DNA of 64,000 bases from NCBI GenBank assembly GCA_944324945.1, contig CALUYE010000001.1:372001-436000 (forward strand), in the 5' to 3' direction. The notes beneath the pieces were generated by a model. It did not search any database. It saw nothing but the letters and a program-made list of their open reading frames with translations, and was not told where the DNA came from. The position numbers were made by a program, and so were the translations under genes. The DNA is from Candidatus Gastranaerophilales bacterium. GTDB taxonomy: Bacteria; Cyanobacteriota; Vampirovibrionia; Gastranaerophilales; Gastranaerophilaceae. Shown here piece by piece: positions 5,433 to 24,736 of the stretch; position 1 is the stretch's first letter, and the number at the start of each line of letters is the position of its first letter.

Positions 5433-6236
5433 CTACTCGTGTTTTGCAACGGCTCCGCTTATGTATGCACTTGCTAAAAGCGTAAATACCAGAGCCTGTA
5501 TAAATGCTACAAATATTTCAAAAAACATTATAGGAAGCGGTAAAAGCGATCCTAAAAATAAACTTATATTATAAACCCAAGCAGAAGGCAGTATTCCTCC
5601 AAGGGTTGTTTGGCAAAACGCATCAATTGCCTGAGGACTTAAAAGAGAAGCAATTAATCCTCCTAAAACCAAAATTAAAATTTCACCCGCAAGTATGTTT
5701 GCAAAAAGACGGAGTGCCAATGTAAGAGGTCTTACAACATCTTCAAGCATATTAAAAGGGGTCATAAACCAGACAGGTTGGAAATAATGTTTAAAATATC
5801 CGATGCCTTTTCTTCTGACACCTGATGATATATAGTAAATTAAAACAATTATTGCTAAAGCAGCCGTTGTATTAATGTCGTTTGTAGGGGAAGCAAATTC
5901 AGCATGGAGTGATTTAATTGAAGGAATAAAATTTAAAAGTTTCCAGGGGATTTGACCTATTAAATTACCCGTTATTATAAATAAAAATAAAGCAATTAAA
6001 ATAGGCGTGTGGCGCTTTCCTTCTTCTCCCATGTCTTTTGTTAAAGACGAGAAAATTGAAACGATATTTTCAAATACAGCCTGCATTTTATTTGGAACAA
6101 GTTTCATATTACCGGTTGCAATAAGCGCAAAGACAATAATAATTGCCATTGTAATCCAAAGGGTAATAAGCGTATCCATGTGAACACTAAGCCCTAATAT
6201 GTTGACTATCCAATGCTGGCCTATATGAAAATCCAT
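5433..6236 (-). CDS. atpB: F0F1 ATP synthase subunit a
   Basis: The 267-residue multispanning protein carries the family motif 'RPLTLALRLFANILAGEIL', which holds the essential Arg facing the c ring, and a C-terminal 'EIFVAFIQALVFTLLASAYI' helix. It is the first gene of the seven-gene operon. No atpI gene precedes it, unlike in many cyanobacteria; the next gene upstream is divergent. The predicted promoter gives a short leader of about 13 nt. Confidence 0.97.
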   Translation of the reverse strand: MDFHIGQHWIVNILGLSVHMDTLITLWITMAIIIVFALIATGNMKLVPNKMQAVFENIVSIFSSLTKDMGEEGKRHTPILIALFLFIITGNLIGQIPWKLLNFIPSIKSLHAEFASPTNDINTTAALAIIVLIYYISSGVRRKGIGYFKHYFQPVWFMTPFNMLEDVVRPLTLALRLFANILAGEILILVLGGLIASLLSPQAIDAFCQTTLGGILPSAWVYNISLFLGSLLPLPIMFFEIFVAFIQALVFTLLASAYISGAVAKHE

Positions 6237-6255
6237 TTTTTCTCGCTTTATACAG

Positions 6256-6284
6256 AGTATGTCCGCATAATAATGTTAACTCAA
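6256..6284 (-). promoter_or_regulatory. Predicted sigma70-type promoter of the atp operon
   Basis: On the minus strand TTGAGT (6284-6279) and CATACT (6261-6256) are separated by 17 nt. Transcription would start near 6249, 13 nt before the atpB ATG, with GCGAG as a weak ribosome site. The rest of the divergent 6237-6424 gap is AT-rich with no other clear signal. Confidence 0.5.
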
Positions 6285-6424
6285 ATTATTTTATCATGCG
6301 CTAATTTATTTGTATGATATTTTTAAAAAAAATGCAATATTTTTGTATTAAAATCCCGATTAATATTTTAAAAGCATCCTTTTTGTAATAAAATTCAAAT
6401 ATAGTAATATTTAATGAGGCTTAA

Positions 6425-8344
6425 TTGAGGAGATTTTTTTTAATATTTATAATTTTATGTTTCATCTTGTGTATATATCAGGATGCAAAGGCTGATTGTG
6501 CGCCTGTTTATGATATAAATGCTTCGAAAAAAATCGCTTTTGGTAATTCAAAAAAAGACACTTCAAAAATTTATTACTACAAAGAAAATTCTCCCAAAGA
6601 AAAATCCATAATAGGTTCATCGGATAAAGAAACAAATATTATCGTTGTTGATAAAAAAAACAAAAGAAATAAAAAAGAAAAAGAAAGAAATATTGAAGTA
6701 AGCACGAGAAATGACAGAATAATTTCTCAATCAAGCATTAAAATAAGTGCAATTTATCCCGATGATCTTGCAAGCGTTACAAATAATTACCCCGGATACC
6801 GCGGAACAAACCAGCTTGTTGTATATAAAAGAGAATTCGGACACACCACAAACACAAACGAATTCGGCAAAGAAGCGGTTGTTGAAAACGGAATAGTAAC
6901 AAAATTAACAGGCGCAAATTCAATTATCCCCAAAAGAGGTTATGTAATTTCAGGGCATGGAAGCGCTAAAAAATGGATAAGCAATAATTTAAAAATCGGT
7001 ACCGAAGTTGAAATATTTGACGATACTCTAAATGCCTATACTACAATAGACAGCTATCGATATTACGCCAAGCATAAGATAGAACAGGTTGAAGACATTT
7101 TAATTTCAACAAAATCAGACTATGCTTCACGTGAAGATAAGTGTATTTATAATTATTTGAAAAAAGCAAAACAATTATATAAAAAATCTTTAAGAAATGC
7201 TTCAAATAATTCAATTGAATGTGCCAAAGAATCAATTAAAAATGCCACCATGGCATACCGCTACACGCTGCCTTATTTATCTGGTGAATTAAAAGGTGTC
7301 TGGATAAGACCAACCCAAAAAACTCCTTATGAAATAGCGCAAACTCTTGATGCCATTAAAAATACGGGAATTGATAACGTATTTTTAGAAACATATTACC
7401 ATGGAAGAACGATTTTTCCTTCAAATGTAATGAGGAAATACGGTTTTGAAGTGCAAAATCCGCAGTTTTCTTATGATGTCTTAGCTTCCTGGATTAAAGA
7501 GGCACACAAAAGAGGAATAAAGGTACATGTGTGGTTTCAGAGTTTTTATGTCGGGAATCTTTCTCCCGAGATTAACTCAAATTTAATTCTTGCCAAAAAA
7601 CCCGAGTGGATGAACCGTTCAAAGAAAAAAGCGGATTTTGAAGGATATGTTTCTCATCCTCAGGAACATAACGGCTATTTTTTAGACCCTGCAAATCCTG
7701 AAGTTATAACATTCCTTCTTGAATTAATAGATGAAATTGCAACAAGATACAGAGTTGACGGCTTTAATATTGATTATGTCAGATATCCCAATGTTTCAAA
7801 AGAAAATTTTAATAACCAATGGGGATATACAAAATATGCAAGAGAAGAATTTAAGCAAATTTATGGAGTTGATCCTGTTGAAATTTCTAAAAAAGACAGC
7901 CTTTGGGATGAATGGTGCCAATATAGAAGCGATAAAATAACGGATTATGTAATAAGAGTATCAAAATATTTAAAATACAGAAAAATTATGTTTTCTGCAG
8001 TTGTTTTCCCTGATTACAAAACAAGTCTTCAAACAAAATATCAGGATTGGACAAATTGGACGGATAAAAAATACACGGATGCCATAACTCCTTTAATTTT
8101 AACAAGTGATGATGAATTGGCTTATAACATGCTTGAAGAAATTAAGAAAAAAGCGGGTGAAGTTACGGTTTATCCGGGCCTTTTTGCAGGGTTTATCGAA
8201 GCGGATCCTGAGGATTTATTAAGGCAAATTCATATAATAAGAAAGTTAAAACTAAACGGCGTAATTCTTTTTGATTGGGCTCATTTGAATTCCGATTATC
8301 TTGAAGTTTTAAAAACCAGTGTATTTAAATCACAAAATTTCTAA
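6425..8344 (+). CDS. Secreted GHL10 (DUF187) glycosidase-like protein
   Basis: The 639-residue protein begins at a TTG codon, supported by a GAGG site 5 nt upstream; the nearby ATG at 6413 runs into a stop after four codons. Residues 1-23 form a signal peptide with cleavage after AKA. Residues about 30-290 have no motif I recognise. From 'GVWIRPTQKTPYEIAQTL' onward it follows the TIM-barrel DUF187/GHL10 family, with 'HKRGIKVHVWFQSFYVGN', 'FLDPANPEVITFLLELIDEI' and the signature 'VDGFNIDYVRYP'. Such proteins are common in cyanobacteria and are thought to act on envelope polysaccharides; the substrate is unknown. It may begin a plus-strand operon with the next two genes. Confidence 0.85.
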   Translation: MRRFFLIFIILCFILCIYQDAKADCAPVYDINASKKIAFGNSKKDTSKIYYYKENSPKEKSIIGSSDKETNIIVVDKKNKRNKKEKERNIEVSTRNDRIISQSSIKISAIYPDDLASVTNNYPGYRGTNQLVVYKREFGHTTNTNEFGKEAVVENGIVTKLTGANSIIPKRGYVISGHGSAKKWISNNLKIGTEVEIFDDTLNAYTTIDSYRYYAKHKIEQVEDILISTKSDYASREDKCIYNYLKKAKQLYKKSLRNASNNSIECAKESIKNATMAYRYTLPYLSGELKGVWIRPTQKTPYEIAQTLDAIKNTGIDNVFLETYYHGRTIFPSNVMRKYGFEVQNPQFSYDVLASWIKEAHKRGIKVHVWFQSFYVGNLSPEINSNLILAKKPEWMNRSKKKADFEGYVSHPQEHNGYFLDPANPEVITFLLELIDEIATRYRVDGFNIDYVRYPNVSKENFNNQWGYTKYAREEFKQIYGVDPVEISKKDSLWDEWCQYRSDKITDYVIRVSKYLKYRKIMFSAVVFPDYKTSLQTKYQDWTNWTDKKYTDAITPLILTSDDELAYNMLEEIKKKAGEVTVYPGLFAGFIEADPEDLLRQIHIIRKLKLNGVILFDWAHLNSDYLEVLKTSVFKSQNF

Positions 8345-15955: not shown

Positions 15956-19121
<3,166 letters not shown>

Positions 19122-19127
19122 ATTCCA

Positions 19128-19143
19128 TGCTATAATTTCGCTA
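19128..19143 (+). promoter_or_regulatory. Leaderless extended -10 promoter, radical SAM copy 1
   Basis: TGC-TATAAT ends at 19136, 6 nt before the ATG at 19143. A TTGAGG at 19107-19112 (18-nt spacer) could serve as -35. No ribosome site is near the ATG. Confidence 0.6.
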
Positions 19144-20216
19144 TGGAGCGCAGAGATTTTATTAAAAATAGTTTATGTTTGAGCTGCATGGGGTTAATAG
19201 TATCAGGATGCAACAGTTTTTTATCCGACAACAGTAATTTAAAAAACGATAAATTTTACTATAAATCAAAACAAGATTTACCAAAGACGGTTCGTCTTGA
19301 AGCCTGTTCGTTATGCCAACTAAATTGCCCTGCCTGCACGGTGAGAAAATTGGAAAAACAAATGCCTAAAGATTGGCTGGGTTATTTAAAATTCAAGGAT
19401 TTCAAAAAGTTTGTCGACGAAAACGATTTTATTAAAGAAATAGAATTATCAAACAACGGCGAAATCTTTCTTAACCCCGAGCTTGATGAAATTATTAAAT
19501 ATGCGTATGAAAAAGGTGTGTCTTTAACTGCAGGCAACGGAGTAAATTTAAATACGGTTTCTGAAACTACTTTAGAAAATCTTGTTAAATATAAATTTAA
19601 ATACATGAAAGTTTCAATAGACGGCGCAACCCCCGAAACATACAAAATATATCGCGTAGGAGGCGACTTTAATAATGTAATTGATAATATCAAAAAGATT
19701 AATTATTTTAAAAAGAAATACAACAGCGAATACCCTCATTTATTCTGGCAATTTATCTTATTTGGCCACAACGAACATGAAATAGAACTGGCCAAGAAAA
19801 AGGCAAAAGAGCTGGGTATGAAAATAGAATTCAAAAGAAATATGTCAGAAGAATACTCTCCGGTAAAAAATAAAGAACTTGTAGAAAAGCAAACGGGTCT
19901 TAAAATTTATAAAGATAAGAGTAAGCTAATAAAAGATACACTTGTGAAACAGAAATTAATTGCCTGTTATACATTATTTCATGCTCCGCAAATAGACTGG
20001 AACGGAAATTTTTTAGGGTGTTGCAAAATATACAATGGTAGCTTTGATAAAAATGTATTTAAAAATGGTTTTTTAGATGTGCTAAATTCACAAAATGTCA
20101 TATACGCAAAGCATATGTTAACTGATTTAACGGTGATGCCTTCTAAAAATTTACCTTGTAGCAAATGTTCAAGATATAAATCTTTAAAGAAGGAAAAACT
20201 GACGTTATTAGTATGA
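19143..20216 (+). CDS. Radical SAM/SPASM-like protein with Tat-type lipoprotein signal, copy 1
   Basis: The 357-residue protein has the radical SAM motif C-x3-C-x2-C at Cys58, Cys62 and Cys65, with an extra Cys55 (EACSLCQLNCPAC), then 'IELSNNGEIFLNPELDEII' in place of the usual GGEP strand and 'KVSIDGATPETYKIYR' on a later barrel strand. The C-terminal 90 residues hold 'CYTLF' , 'IDWNGNFLGCCKIY' and PCSKCSRYK, a SPASM-like auxiliary cluster pattern. The N-terminus MERRDFIKN followed by a hydrophobic stretch and VSGC (Cys23) reads as a twin-arginine signal with lipobox. If real, this would place an FeS radical enzyme outside the cytoplasm. First of five paralogs; target unknown; no precursor peptide is near. 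Confidence 0.85.
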   Translation: MERRDFIKNSLCLSCMGLIVSGCNSFLSDNSNLKNDKFYYKSKQDLPKTVRLEACSLCQLNCPACTVRKLEKQMPKDWLGYLKFKDFKKFVDENDFIKEIELSNNGEIFLNPELDEIIKYAYEKGVSLTAGNGVNLNTVSETTLENLVKYKFKYMKVSIDGATPETYKIYRVGGDFNNVIDNIKKINYFKKKYNSEYPHLFWQFILFGHNEHEIELAKKKAKELGMKIEFKRNMSEEYSPVKNKELVEKQTGLKIYKDKSKLIKDTLVKQKLIACYTLFHAPQIDWNGNFLGCCKIYNGSFDKNVFKNGFLDVLNSQNVIYAKHMLTDLTVMPSKNLPCSKCSRYKSLKKEKLTLLV

Positions 20217-20243
20217 TTGTTCTAAAGAAGGCTATGAATTTTA

Positions 20244-21317
20244 ATGTATAGAAGAGATTTTATTATTAATACTATATTTTTAGGTTGTTTGGGTTCACTT
20301 TTTACGGGTTGCAAAAATTCTTCGGAAGATAGACAGAATTTAAAAAATGATAAATTTTATTTTAGGTCAAAAGAAGATTTACCCAAAAGAATTCAATTGG
20401 AAGCTTGTTCGTTATGTCAATTAAATTGTCCTGAATGCATGGCAAGAAGATATGAAAAACAAGCTCCAAAAGATTGGCTAGGGTATTTAAAATTTGATGA
20501 TTTTAAAAAATTTGTTGATGATAATGAATTTATAAATGAGATAGAGCTTGCAAATAAAGGTGAAATATTTTTGAATCCGGAGCTTGATGAGATTATTAAA
20601 TATGCATATTATAAAGATGTATATCTAACGGCAACAACAGGTGTAAATTTAAATAATGTTTCAGAAAAGACATTAGAAAATTTAGTTAAATATAAATTTA
20701 GTATTTTGTTTATAGCACTTGATGGTGCAACTCCTGAAACATATAAAATATACAGACGCGGCGGCGATTTTAACAGAGTCATAGATAATATCAAGAAAAT
20801 TAATTACTATAAAAAGAAATATAGCAGTGAATATCCAAAATTAGTATGGCAATTTATTCCATTCGGTCATAACGAACATGAGATAGACCTTGCAAAACAA
20901 AAAGCAAAAGAACTAAACATGAAAATAGAATTCAGAAGAAATTATTCTCCAAACTATTCTCCTGTTAAGAATAAAAAATTAGTGGAGCAAAAAACGGGAA
21001 TGAAAATTTTTCATACAAAAAACGAAGCATATCAAGAACGGCTAAAGGAACAAAAATTATTTGCCTGTTACCAATCTCTAAAAAGTCCGCAAATCGACTA
21101 TAATGGGGATTTATTATGTCATTGTAGAGTATCTACGGCAAAATTTAGTGCAAATGCATTTAAAGACGGTTTGTTGAGTGCACTAAATTCACCCGATTTT
21201 ATATATGCTAAACACATGTTGACTGATTTATCAATCCCACCCAAAGAAGGCATACCTTGTACAAGATGCCCGAAATACAAATTTTTAAGAAGAAATAATC
21301 AGATTATTTCTCTGTAA
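20244..21317 (+). CDS. Radical SAM/SPASM-like protein with Tat-type lipoprotein signal, copy 2
   Basis: The 357-residue paralog keeps CxxxCxxC in 'EACSLCQLNCPECMARR', the 'ALDGATPETYKIYRRGGDFN' strand and a C-terminal SPASM-like set (CYQSL, LLCHCRVS, PCTRCPKYK). The signal reads MYRRDFIIN, then a hydrophobic run with only one Cys, then FTGC as lipobox. It is the most diverged copy in the first half: codons for FVDDNEFINEIELANKGE differ from copies 1, 3 and 5. Unlike the other copies it lacks a clean TATAAT; 'GGCTATGAATTTTA' sits before the ATG, and an AGAAGG lies about 12 nt upstream. It could be cotranscribed with copy 1 (27-nt gap). Confidence 0.83.
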   Translation: MYRRDFIINTIFLGCLGSLFTGCKNSSEDRQNLKNDKFYFRSKEDLPKRIQLEACSLCQLNCPECMARRYEKQAPKDWLGYLKFDDFKKFVDDNEFINEIELANKGEIFLNPELDEIIKYAYYKDVYLTATTGVNLNNVSEKTLENLVKYKFSILFIALDGATPETYKIYRRGGDFNRVIDNIKKINYYKKKYSSEYPKLVWQFIPFGHNEHEIDLAKQKAKELNMKIEFRRNYSPNYSPVKNKKLVEQKTGMKIFHTKNEAYQERLKEQKLFACYQSLKSPQIDYNGDLLCHCRVSTAKFSANAFKDGLLSALNSPDFIYAKHMLTDLSIPPKEGIPCTRCPKYKFLRRNNQIISL

Positions 21318-21329
21318 TAGTATTTTATA

Positions 21330-21345
21330 TGCTATAATTCAATTA
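21330..21345 (+). promoter_or_regulatory. Leaderless extended -10 promoter, radical SAM copy 3
   Basis: TGC-TATAAT ends at 21338, 6 nt before the ATG at 21345. No ribosome site and no obvious -35. Confidence 0.6.
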
Positions 21346-22424
21346 TGGAAAGACGCGAGTTTATTAAAAATGGCTTATGTCTGGGATGCATGGGAATATT
21401 GGTTTCAGGATGCAATAATATATTTCAGGCAAACAATGGATTGAAGAATGACAGATTTTATTATAAATCAGAAAATGATTTGCCCAAGACGGTTCGCCTT
21501 GAGGCTTGTTCGTTATGCCAGTTGAATTGCCCCGAGTGTACAACAAGAAAGCTTGAAAAACAAGCTCCTAAAGATTGGCTAGGGTATTTAAAATTCAAGG
21601 ATTTCAAAAAATTTGTCGACGAAAACGATTTTATTAAAGAAATAGAATTATCAAACAACGGTGAAATCTTCCTTAATCCTGAACTTGATGAGATTATAAA
21701 GTATGCGTATGAAAAGGGTATATGGTTGCGTGCAGGCAATGGGGTTAATTTAAATACGGTTTCTGAAACTACTTTAGAAAACCTTGTTAAATATAAATTT
21801 AAAAGAATGACTGTTTCATTAGACGCTGCTACCTCTGAGACATATAAAATATACAGACGCGGCGGCGATTTTAATAAAGTTATAGATAACATTAAAAAAA
21901 TAAACTATTTTAAAAAGAAATACAATAGTGAATTTCCTGTATTGCATTATCAATTTATCTTATTCGGACACAATGAACATGAAATAGAGCTGGCTAAAAA
22001 GAAAGCTAAAGAGCTTAATATGAGAATGAGATTCAGAAGAAACAACAGTATTGAATACTCTCCAATAAAAAATAAAGAGCTTGTTGAGAAACAGACAGGT
22101 TTGAAAATATATGATGAAAAGAATAAAATGATTGAAAAATTATTTTCAATTAAAAAAGGCAGACTCTATGCTTGTTATACATTATTTTATTCGCCTCAGA
22201 TTGACTATAATGGCGATTTATTGGGATGTTGCCAAATATTTTTGGAAAACCTGGGAATAAACGTATTTAAAGAAGGCTTATTGAATGCACTTAATTCGCA
22301 AAATGTAATATATACAAAACACATGCTTACTGATTTATCGATTCCCGTGAAGCAAAATTTGCCTTGTGCAAAATGTTCTAAGTATAGATTCTTAAAAAGA
22401 CGGGGCAAAGGGTTGCAAGTATAG
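21345..22424 (+). CDS. Radical SAM/SPASM-like protein with Tat-type lipoprotein signal, copy 3
   Basis: The 359-residue paralog has MERREFIKN, a Cys-containing hydrophobic stretch (LCLGCMGIL) and VSGC as lipobox, then 'EACSLCQLNCPECTTRK' with the CxxxCxxC motif. The C-terminus keeps CYTLFYSPQIDYNG, LLGCCQIF and PCAKCSKYR. In the strand that carries 'SIDGATPETYK' in copy 1 it has SLDAATSETYK, a change of a conserved Gly to Ala. Its DNA shares a stretch of about 50 identical bases with copy 1 (in the FVDENDFIKEIELSNNG coding segment, near 21611-21660), although flanking parts differ, which suggests gene conversion between copies. Confidence 0.84.
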   Translation: MERREFIKNGLCLGCMGILVSGCNNIFQANNGLKNDRFYYKSENDLPKTVRLEACSLCQLNCPECTTRKLEKQAPKDWLGYLKFKDFKKFVDENDFIKEIELSNNGEIFLNPELDEIIKYAYEKGIWLRAGNGVNLNTVSETTLENLVKYKFKRMTVSLDAATSETYKIYRRGGDFNKVIDNIKKINYFKKKYNSEFPVLHYQFILFGHNEHEIELAKKKAKELNMRMRFRRNNSIEYSPIKNKELVEKQTGLKIYDEKNKMIEKLFSIKKGRLYACYTLFYSPQIDYNGDLLGCCQIFLENLGINVFKEGLLNALNSQNVIYTKHMLTDLSIPVKQNLPCAKCSKYRFLKRRGKGLQV

Positions 22425-22451
22425 ATATAATAAATATTCTTGTGCAAAGTG

Positions 22452-22467
22452 TGTTATAATTCAATTA
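22452..22467 (+). promoter_or_regulatory. Leaderless extended -10 promoter, radical SAM copy 4
   Basis: TGT-TATAAT ends at 22460, 6 nt before the ATG at 22467. An in-frame ATG at 22440 lies upstream of the -10 and is therefore not the likely start. Confidence 0.6.
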
Positions 22468-23555
22468 TGGAAAGACGAGAGTTTATTAAAAATGGTCTGT
22501 GTTTAAGCTGTATTAGTATTTTTGGTGCGGGCTGTAAAAATTCGTTAATTAATGATAATAGTCTTGAAAACGATAGATTTTACTATAAATCAAAAGACGA
22601 ACTTCCAAAAAGAATAAGAATAGAAGCATGCTCCTTATGCCAACTTAATTGTCCTGCATGCACAACAAGAAGACTTGAAAAAAAAGCTCCAAAAGATTGG
22701 CTTGGGTATTTAAAATTTGATGATTTTAAGAAATTTGTCGACGATAATAAATTTGATGAGATAGAGTTATCTAATAATGGAGAAATATTTTTAAACCCGG
22801 AACTTGATGAGATTATTAAATATGCTTATTATAAGAATATAAGCTTAACTGCAAGTAATGGAGTTAATTTAAATACGGTTTCAGAAGCTACTTTAGAAAA
22901 TCTTGTTAAGTATAAATTTAAAAAAATTACCGTTTCTATAGATGGTGCTACTCCTGAAACATATAAAATATACCGTGTGGGCGGAGATTTAAATACGGTT
23001 TTTCGTAACATTAAAAGAATTAATTATTATAAAGAAAAATATAACAGTATATTCCCGAAGCTTACATATCAATTTATTCCATTCGGACACAATGAACATG
23101 AGATTTTATTGGCAAAGAAAAAAGCTCAGGAATTGAATATGGGAATAACTTTCAGGCGTAATATACAAATTAAATATTCACCAATAAAAAACAAAGAACT
23201 TGTTGAAAGGCAAACAGGCCTTAAAATACACACGCAATTAAAAAATTTAATAAAAGAAGATATGGAATTGAAAAAAACATTTGTTTGTTATGGGCTATTT
23301 AATCGTCCTCAGATTGATTATAATGGCAATTTATTGGGATGTCCGAGGATATATATAGGGAGTTTTGGCGCTAATGCATTTAAAGACGGACTTTTAAAGG
23401 CATTGAATGATTCAAAATATATTTATGCGAAACATATGCTTACAGACCTTTCGGTATCTCCAAAGAAAGATGTTCCTTGTTTCGACTGCTATTCGTATCG
23501 AATGTTGAGGAAAAACAACACTCCGTTAAAACGATCTTTTATTGATAATATATAA
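22467..23555 (+). CDS. Radical SAM/SPASM-like protein with Tat-type lipoprotein signal, copy 4
   Basis: From the ATG at 22467 the protein has 362 residues. I choose this start because the MERREFIKN signal aligns with the other copies and the promoter places transcription there. The lipobox region is FGAGC. It has 'EACSLCQLNCPACTTRR' and 'SIDGATPETYKIYRVGGDL'. The SPASM-like part has CYGLF, 'IDYNGNLLGCPRIY' and PCFDCYSYR; the second Cys of the GCC pair in copies 1 and 3 is Pro here. One residue is missing in the NKFDEIELSNNG segment relative to other copies. A short basic tail (to residue 362) extends past the shared end. Confidence 0.83.
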   Translation: MERREFIKNGLCLSCISIFGAGCKNSLINDNSLENDRFYYKSKDELPKRIRIEACSLCQLNCPACTTRRLEKKAPKDWLGYLKFDDFKKFVDDNKFDEIELSNNGEIFLNPELDEIIKYAYYKNISLTASNGVNLNTVSEATLENLVKYKFKKITVSIDGATPETYKIYRVGGDLNTVFRNIKRINYYKEKYNSIFPKLTYQFIPFGHNEHEILLAKKKAQELNMGITFRRNIQIKYSPIKNKELVERQTGLKIHTQLKNLIKEDMELKKTFVCYGLFNRPQIDYNGNLLGCPRIYIGSFGANAFKDGLLKALNDSKYIYAKHMLTDLSVSPKKDVPCFDCYSYRMLRKNNTPLKRSFIDNI

Positions 23556-23596
23556 TACTAAATATTTGCAAACAATTTGTTTATCGGTAAATGGTG

Positions 23597-23612
23597 TGTT
23601 ATAATTAAAGTA
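23597..23612 (+). promoter_or_regulatory. Leaderless extended -10 promoter, radical SAM copy 5
   Basis: TGT-TATAAT ends at 23605, 6 nt before the ATG at 23612. No ribosome site precedes the ATG. Confidence 0.6.
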
Positions 23613-24685
23613 TGAAAAGAAGAAGTTTTATAAAGAGTGCGGTTTGTCTGGGTTGTCTTGGAATGGCAGCAGGTTGCAGTGATTTTTTAAATTTTCAGGA
23701 TAGAAATTCGGAATTCTTTTTAACCGCTGACCAGCTTCCAAGAAGCATACGATTAGAAGCATGTTCGCTATGTCAATTAAGGTGTCCTGCTTGCGTAACT
23801 TTGCTATACCAGAAAAAAGCTCCGAAAGATTGGGTCGGATATTTAAAATTTGATGATTTCAAAAAATTTGTCGATGAGAATGACTTTATTAAAGAAATAG
23901 AATTATCAAATAAAGGTGAAATATTTTTAAACCCTGAACTTGATGAAATAATTAAATATGCGCACCATAAAGGCATCACCTTAACTGCGGGAAATGGGGT
24001 TAATTTTAACTCCGTCTCCGATACCACTCTTGAAAATTTAGTAAAGTATCAGGTTAAGCATATGACAATTGCAATAGATGGTGCCACTCCTGAAACATAC
24101 AAAATATATCGTGTTGGCGGAGATTTTAATAAAGTAATTGATAATATTAAAAAGATTAATTATTTCAAAAAGAAATACAACAGCGAATTTCCTAAGCTTA
24201 CATGGCAATTTATTCCATTCGGACACAATGAACATGAGATTTTATTGGCAAAGAAAAAGGCTCAGGAATTGAATATGGAAATTCTGTATAAAAGAAATAT
24301 GAGAAAAAAATATTCTCCTGTAAAAAATAGAAAATTAGTTGAAGAACTAACGGGGATCATAACTTTTGATAAATTTGACAATTCGCTCAAAGATGATTTA
24401 AAAGAAAAGACTTTTGCCTGCTATAATTTATTTAACTATCCTCAAATAGATTATAATGGACTTCTATTAGGCTGCAATAGGGCTTATATAGGAAATTTCG
24501 GAATTAATGTGTTTGAAGTAGGTCTTTTAAATGCATTAAATTATTCAAAATGTATATATGCAAAAAGAATGCTTACTGATTTTTCTACGCCTCCAAAGAA
24601 CGGCATACCATGCACTAAGTGTCATTCATATACCGTTCTTAAATCAACCGGAAAACCATTAAATAAAGCTTTTTTTAATACATAA
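23612..24685 (+). CDS. Radical SAM/SPASM-like protein with Tat-type lipoprotein signal, copy 5
   Basis: The 357-residue paralog has MKRRSFIKS, a short hydrophobic stretch (VCLGCLGM) and AAGC as lipobox, followed by a shorter linker than the other copies. The motif is 'EACSLCQLRCPAC', then 'AIDGATPETYKIYRVGGDF'. The SPASM-like part has CYNLF, LLLGCNRAY and PCTKCHSYT. A stretch near 24214-24280 is nearly identical in DNA to copy 4, whereas its middle part resembles copies 1 and 3, so it is mosaic. Last gene of the cluster; a stem-loop follows before convergent clpB. Confidence 0.83.
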   Translation: MKRRSFIKSAVCLGCLGMAAGCSDFLNFQDRNSEFFLTADQLPRSIRLEACSLCQLRCPACVTLLYQKKAPKDWVGYLKFDDFKKFVDENDFIKEIELSNKGEIFLNPELDEIIKYAHHKGITLTAGNGVNFNSVSDTTLENLVKYQVKHMTIAIDGATPETYKIYRVGGDFNKVIDNIKKINYFKKKYNSEFPKLTWQFIPFGHNEHEILLAKKKAQELNMEILYKRNMRKKYSPVKNRKLVEELTGIITFDKFDNSLKDDLKEKTFACYNLFNYPQIDYNGLLLGCNRAYIGNFGINVFEVGLLNALNYSKCIYAKRMLTDFSTPPKNGIPCTKCHSYTVLKSTGKPLNKAFFNT

Positions 24686-24702: not shown

Positions 24703-24736
24703 ACCTTAGTGCACTTAACTATAGTGCACTAAAGGT
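24703..24736. terminator. Stem-loop between convergent radical SAM copy 5 and clpB
   Basis: TTAGTGCAC (24706-24714) pairs with GTGCACTAA (24724-24732), extended by ACC/GGT with one bulge. It overlaps the clpB stop codon. U tracts are weak on both sides, so its strength as terminator is uncertain. Confidence 0.45.

Follow-up and report, generated by a model that had tools for sequence, protein, structure and literature searches.

Can a radical S-adenosylmethionine (SAM) enzyme work outside the cytoplasm? The question is raised by five adjacent genes at positions 19143-24685 of a 64,000-nucleotide stretch of DNA (the window) from a Candidatus Gastranaerophilales bacterium (GenBank assembly GCA_944324945.1, contig CALUYE010000001.1, positions 372,001 to 436,000), each encoding a radical SAM (rSAM) protein that begins like a lipoprotein of the twin-arginine translocation (Tat) pathway. 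To our knowledge, rSAM enzymes have been described only from the cell interior, and their dependence on SAM and on low-potential electrons is the reason for regarding them as strictly cytoplasmic. The array, first noticed in a sequence-only reading of the window, is confirmed here and extended: 17 of the 39 rSAM (PF04055) loci of this genome bear Tat signals, and these proteins come from two distant families at five loci. The open-access literature, to which the search was confined, yielded no account of an rSAM enzyme that is exported, periplasmic or targeted to Tat, and two matches (PMC10924467 and PMC2964644) were incidental to the question; this agrees with the earlier remark that no described system has such a layout.

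Export-type N-termini on intact enzyme cores

The five paralogs, all on the plus strand, have 357-362 residues and are 63-76% identical to copy 1; their open reading frames (ORFs) and Pfam Radical_SAM matches bear out the original description. Copy 1 (357 residues) lies at 19143..20216, copy 2 at 20244..21317, copy 3 at 21345..22424, copy 4 at 22467..23555 and copy 5 at 23612..24685. For copy 4 the start was placed at the ATG at 22467, which gives MERREFIK; the mechanical ORF start was a TTG at 22440.

The N-terminus reported earlier, [EYK]-RR-[DES]-FI-[KI] followed by a hydrophobic stretch and a lipobox, is found as stated. In copy 1 it reads MERRDFIKNSLCLSCMGLIVSGC (19143..19211, plus strand), and Cys23 is predicted to be lipidated. 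The other copies begin with MYRRDFII (copy 2), MERREFIK (copies 3 and 4) and MKRRSFIK (copy 5), and the lipoboxes of copies 1-5 are VSGC, FTGC, VSGC, GAGC and AAGC. R3, R4, F6, I7 and C23 are invariant. The Tat motif is thus of the RR-x-F-[LI]-K type, with I for K in copy 2, and is followed by a short and moderately hydrophobic h-region: a hydrophobic run of about 12-15 residues precedes the lipobox Cys, the uncharged stretch between RR motif and Cys measures about 14-15 residues, and hydropathy over 19 residues peaks at 1.37-1.47 in the window copies. Such values are in line with a Tat signal, and the run is short for a stable membrane anchor. A lipobox of the bacterial lipoprotein type is present in 7/7 copies of this family (family A) in the genome, which also encodes the lipoprotein signal peptidase LspA (88 bits) and, both on contig 5, tatA and tatC.

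What lies behind the signal is an rSAM core with its cluster and SAM motifs intact. All five copies pass the PF04055 cut-off of 29.5 (29.9-37.9 bits); the C-x3-C-x2-C cysteines noted before are present in a CQLxCPxC motif, followed by N-[NK]-G-E, in which G106 and E107 never vary. An alignment of 36 rows, covering exported and cytosolic members, shows no change at the three cluster Cys or at E101, G106, E107, C275, C339 and C342. Between the window paralogs, residues 46-225 are under strong purifying selection, with nonsynonymous divergence (dN) of 0.08-0.15 against synonymous divergence (dS) from about 0.85-1.0 up to saturation. Mean identity is 80% in this core and ~50% in residues 226-357, the divergent part in which substrate contacts would be expected.

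The auxiliary cysteines had been called SPASM-like, and here a correction is needed. They form a four-Cys twitch site of the pattern CX9-15GX4C...CX2C, namely C275-x12-G288-x4-C293 and C339-x2-C342 in copies 1, 3, 4 and 5; in copy 2 the auxiliary Cys is shifted, CHC replacing GC. The seven-Cys SPASM pattern (CX9-15GX4C-CX2CX5CX3C-C) is not found, its CX2CX5CX3C part being absent, and PF13186 stays below its cut-off of 21.5 bits (14.8 and 13.3 bits, and unlisted for three copies).

Which known enzymes are closest? The structure model of copy 1 has a mean predicted local distance difference test score (pLDDT) of 88.4 and a predicted TM-score (pTM) of 0.86, with the first 28 residues disordered or of low confidence. 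It shows the partial TIM barrel of rSAM enzymes, matching SAM-bound SuiB with Z 20.2 (275 aligned residues, root-mean-square deviation (rmsd) 4.4 Å) and anSME with Z 18.8; no single solved relative is nearest, since SuiB, SkfB, DesII and anSME fall within 1.5 Z. The SPASM maturases SuiB, SkfB and anSME are the closest solved folds (Z 18.6-20.2), but the array proteins differ from them in lacking the seven-Cys SPASM site, in having no precursor peptide gene in the array and in their exported-type N-terminus. The second family (family B), whose model has a pLDDT of 75, resembles the twitch dehydrogenase SpeY (Z 21.8, rmsd 2.8 Å, 248 aligned), with BtrN next at 13.6. SpeY and BtrN combine an rSAM core with a single CX9-15GX4C...CX2C auxiliary cluster, and family A has a Cys spacing that conforms to this pattern, although family A matches these two no better than other rSAM enzymes. 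They are enzymes of antibiotic pathways, and we know of no signal peptides on them. A fold match shows no function by itself. A PDB sequence search with one copy gave nothing relevant, and with a profile only the archaeal GDGT-MAS. The best curated match, in NCBIfam, is TIGR04317, an rSAM maturase of tungsten-cofactor oxidoreductases, over residues 47-261 of copy 1; it scores 66-73.2 bits, below the cut-off of 380, and no tungsten oxidoreductase context was seen.

Signals in two families and several genomes

How far does the signal extend? The whole genome was scanned with a DNA pattern for MxRRxFxK-type starts, with the reversed pattern as a control; the former has 28 sites and the latter 6. 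The strict motif opens 17 real ORFs in frame, of which 16 are rSAM proteins and the remaining one an aldo/keto reductase with iron-sulfur (Fe-S) sites. Taking ~1900 genes, the hypergeometric P for 16/17 is ~5e-28, a figure to be read with the caution that the paralogs are not independent (two families, five loci). Copy 2, whose MYRRDFII lies outside the strict motif, is the 17th signalled rSAM protein. One strict-motif site, C3:12819, was rejected as a Tat-rSAM start, there being no gene. The housekeeping rSAM proteins of the genome carry no Tat motif.

Family A has two further copies on contig 5, both with RR-x-F-I and a lipobox. Family B (CNLNCxxCxHFSPIAP, with an invariant GGEPL) has ten Tat-signalled copies at three loci, and also an unsignalled relative. 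Five of the family-B genes, in two divergent groups, lie at 9097-13702 of L208 (G000:C2:290000-309900), where they adjoin a prophage region (head-tail connector PF12236 and terminase PF04466, L208:4916-8091) and two PMT_2-like transferases. The h-regions of the Tat signals are unusually rich in Cys, as in L208:10012-12857; examples of such stretches are GACACCAC, SACACAGC and CLSCMG.

Homologs of family A occur in many phyla without the N-terminal extension, the match beginning at about residue 47. In a phylum sample of 386 genomes, strong matches are confined to three genomes of the bacterium's own family. A metagenome-assembled genome (MAG) from horse feces has a tandem family-A array with Tat N-termini on 6/7 copies, and such N-termini are also found in the genomes G221 and UBA947. 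One UBA947 copy, SRRSFIKTTGLLGACALCGTFPRAFA, has an AFA site resembling that of signal peptidase I where most others have a lipobox. In family B, some copies of genus g29 begin with MKRRDF[IL]CG. The check proposed earlier, whether homologs share this N-terminus, has a mixed outcome that is still informative: it is absent from most homologs, across many phyla, and present in a defined subset, whose genomes all encode TatC.

Trees were built on the rSAM cores without the signal region, with support from the SH-aLRT branch test only and some weak deep forks. In each family, two Tat clades stand among unsignalled relatives: for family A, this genome with the horse-feces MAG and G221, and separately UBA947; for family B, this genome and, separately, genus g29. 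This points to several gains of the signal, perhaps three or four, and apparent losses are also seen. The g29 genomes (L246, L248, L253, L254 and other loci) have, in addition, many neighbouring rSAM genes of ~330 residues and of a further, unsignalled kind, reading CSYSMCMKFEA... and CCFMGTNTPEP.... A phage origin was considered and rejected: relatives in IMG/VR are remote (25-34% identity), and their matches leave out the signal, none beginning before query residue 32.

Is the translocase present wherever the signal is? TatC is patchy across the order (103/286 sampled genomes) and occurs in 7/7 of the sampled genomes with a signalled rSAM protein (Fisher p = 7e-4), a count that includes G212 despite a stop interrupting its gene. 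It is found in 27/62 genomes that have only unsignalled homologs (p = 0.005 against the seven), and with one genome per genus it is present in 4/4 signalled (p = 0.016). The horse-feces MAG, outside the order sample, is also TatC-positive. TatC is missing from two genomes of genus g29, G181 and G288, whose examined rSAM copies are unsignalled. Tat targeting and lipidation, both proposed in the sequence-only reading, are thus well supported as far as sequence goes: TatA, TatC and LspA are encoded, the signal is shared with other genomes and with a second rSAM family, it co-occurs with TatC and in one case it ends in an AxA site. Export through Tat is likely.

What the exported proteins may do

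The explanation proposed here starts from five paralogous rSAM enzymes, each with one auxiliary twitch [4Fe-4S] site, that would fold and receive their clusters in the cytoplasm and then cross the membrane via TatAC. Fe-S proteins must fold before export, and Tat export fits this need. The lipidated Cys would tether them either on the outside of the cytoplasmic membrane or at the outer membrane, where they would most likely still be catalytic and modify extracytoplasmic envelope material. The most plausible substrates would be surface glycans, altered by radical dehydrogenation or similar chemistry, and the copies diverge in their C-terminal halves, where contacts with the substrate would be expected. 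For active catalysis outside the cytoplasm the chances seem even, and the explanation as a whole, with export, tethering and action on the envelope, is likewise finely balanced. A wider picture is more tentative: the recognisable Tat cargo of these bacteria would be dominated by 17 diversified twitch rSAM enzymes from two families, many of them lipidated, fed with SAM and electrons across the membrane and rewriting envelope molecules, and the signal would have been gained repeatedly and independently.

Where could the electrons come from? The tat operon contains genes for an exported-type aldo/keto reductase, a NapH-NapG-like fusion, TatA and TatC. The fusion (L111, G000:C5:100000-114000, 6232-7524), in one operon with tatA and tatC, has an internal Tat-like motif, RRNLIKTVSLFALLALG, with further [4Fe-4S] sites behind it. 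The fusion, whose C-terminal ferredoxin part thus bears a Tat-like motif, is a candidate electron source, and a plausible one for the periplasm. The likeness to NapG and MauM lies in the Tat export of preloaded [4Fe-4S] proteins; these two and NapH are, however, electron-transfer proteins and not rSAM enzymes. The NapH-NapG-tatA-tatC cluster is conserved in most of the TatC-positive relatives looked at, and a donor dedicated to the rSAM proteins was rejected on the ground of this generality. In dehydrogenase-type rSAM enzymes such as BtrN and SpeY, the auxiliary cluster can hand back the electron taken from the substrate, and a donor on the outside would then be less necessary.

The idea of a glycan substrate comes from the genes next to the Tat-rSAM loci: a GDSL hydrolase in the window, an acyltransferase-3 on C5, two PMT_2-like transferases on C2 (one tested), and a polysaccharide pyruvyl transferase and a GT9 enzyme on C1. 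Such transferase and hydrolase neighbours suggest surface glycans.

Several points weigh against this explanation. Its main gap is SAM, for which we know of no source outside the cytoplasm and for which the analysis identified no carrier. A lipobox is missing from two of the family-B copies, on C1, and from those of g29. Some TatC-positive relatives that have no signalled rSAM proteins also carry the NapH-NapG fusion, which is therefore not specific to such proteins. The glycan link is drawn solely from neighbours and fold resemblance, and neither a conserved partner gene nor a gene for a substrate was found.

Could these be exported Fe-S lipoproteins that derive from rSAM enzymes and no longer use SAM, serving as electron carriers, metal or redox sensors, or envelope binding proteins? 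Such a role would accord with an export supported by sequence and with SAM not being expected outside the cytoplasm, and the exported-type polyferredoxin and the aldo/keto reductase with Fe-S sites in the tat operon make Fe-S redox proteins a natural Tat cargo here. A carrier, however, would be expected to lose the GE motif and the SAM site. CxxxCxxC, GE and the core residues are invariant in exported and cytosolic members alike, the core is under strong purifying selection and family B keeps its GGEPL as well; the loss of SAM use, raised in the sequence-only reading, is therefore not supported, and we consider such proteins unlikely. The other possibility raised there, that of enzymes on the cytoplasmic face, with the RR and hydrophobic N-terminus acting as an anchor or a stalled Tat signal, would remove the problem of SAM and electrons, as cytoplasmic SAM could be used; some signalled copies (the C1 pair and g29) indeed lack an obvious cleavage site, and one copy of the horse MAG array has no signal at all. 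It is disfavoured by a run of only ~12-15 residues with low 19-residue hydropathy, at the end of which every family-A copy of the genome has a lipobox; lipidation occurs on the outer face of the membrane, and the cleavage-type AFA site in UBA947 and the restriction of signalled copies to TatC-positive genomes argue in the same direction, and we regard this arrangement, too, as improbable. The earlier interpretation is thus supported in part: Tat targeting and lipidation have good support from sequence, the loss of SAM use has none and the cytoplasmic-face anchor is disfavoured. An origin of the N-terminal extension in misassigned start codons or chance matches would have in its favour only the general unreliability of start calls; RRxF is invariant in 5/5 window copies, the signal codons are constrained between these paralogs (dN 0.13-0.33, dS >1.2), the motif sites far exceed the reversed control and the same N-terminus recurs in homologs from other genomes, so that an artefact is highly improbable.

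What follows if the signals mean what they appear to mean? Export would bring radical chemistry to the cell surface. With 17 of 39 rSAM loci signalled and two families recruited separately, it becomes directly testable whether SAM-radical chemistry can work outside the membrane. If catalysis does take place there, SAM and electrons must be able to reach the periplasm, and a new way of modifying the surface of gut bacteria would have been found. If not, the rSAM fold has been put to a second use in exported Fe-S proteins that retain the SAM site, an outcome no less odd. The finding is a variant of the radical SAM kind and would be categorically new if outside catalysis were shown.

The transcription unit and its neighbours

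A gene for a GDSL/SGNH-type hydrolase of 203 residues without a signal peptide (18510..19121, plus strand; PF13472, E 7e-15) precedes copy 1 by 21 bp and would be the first of the operon. Downstream of copy 5 lies a terminator-like hairpin of 10 pairs (24706..24732, plus strand; a consensus match only), beyond which the next gene is convergent to the array. Given this gene and this hairpin, a six-gene transcription unit is likely. The intergenic gaps across the array are 21-56 bp, which leaves no room for a precursor-peptide gene inside it, in agreement with the earlier statement that none lies nearby.

In other phyla, the 104 neighbours of family-A genes include no single shared partner; 7 are rSAM, 5 ABC, 4 methyltransferases, 3 GT2 and 2 GDSL proteins. 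In UBA947, two FkbM-type (PF05050) SAM-dependent methyltransferases (L021, 1844-2731 and 2738-3706, minus strand) adjoin Tat-signalled rSAM genes; both have hydrophobic N-terminal signal or anchor segments, possibly another sign that SAM is used outside the cytoplasm.

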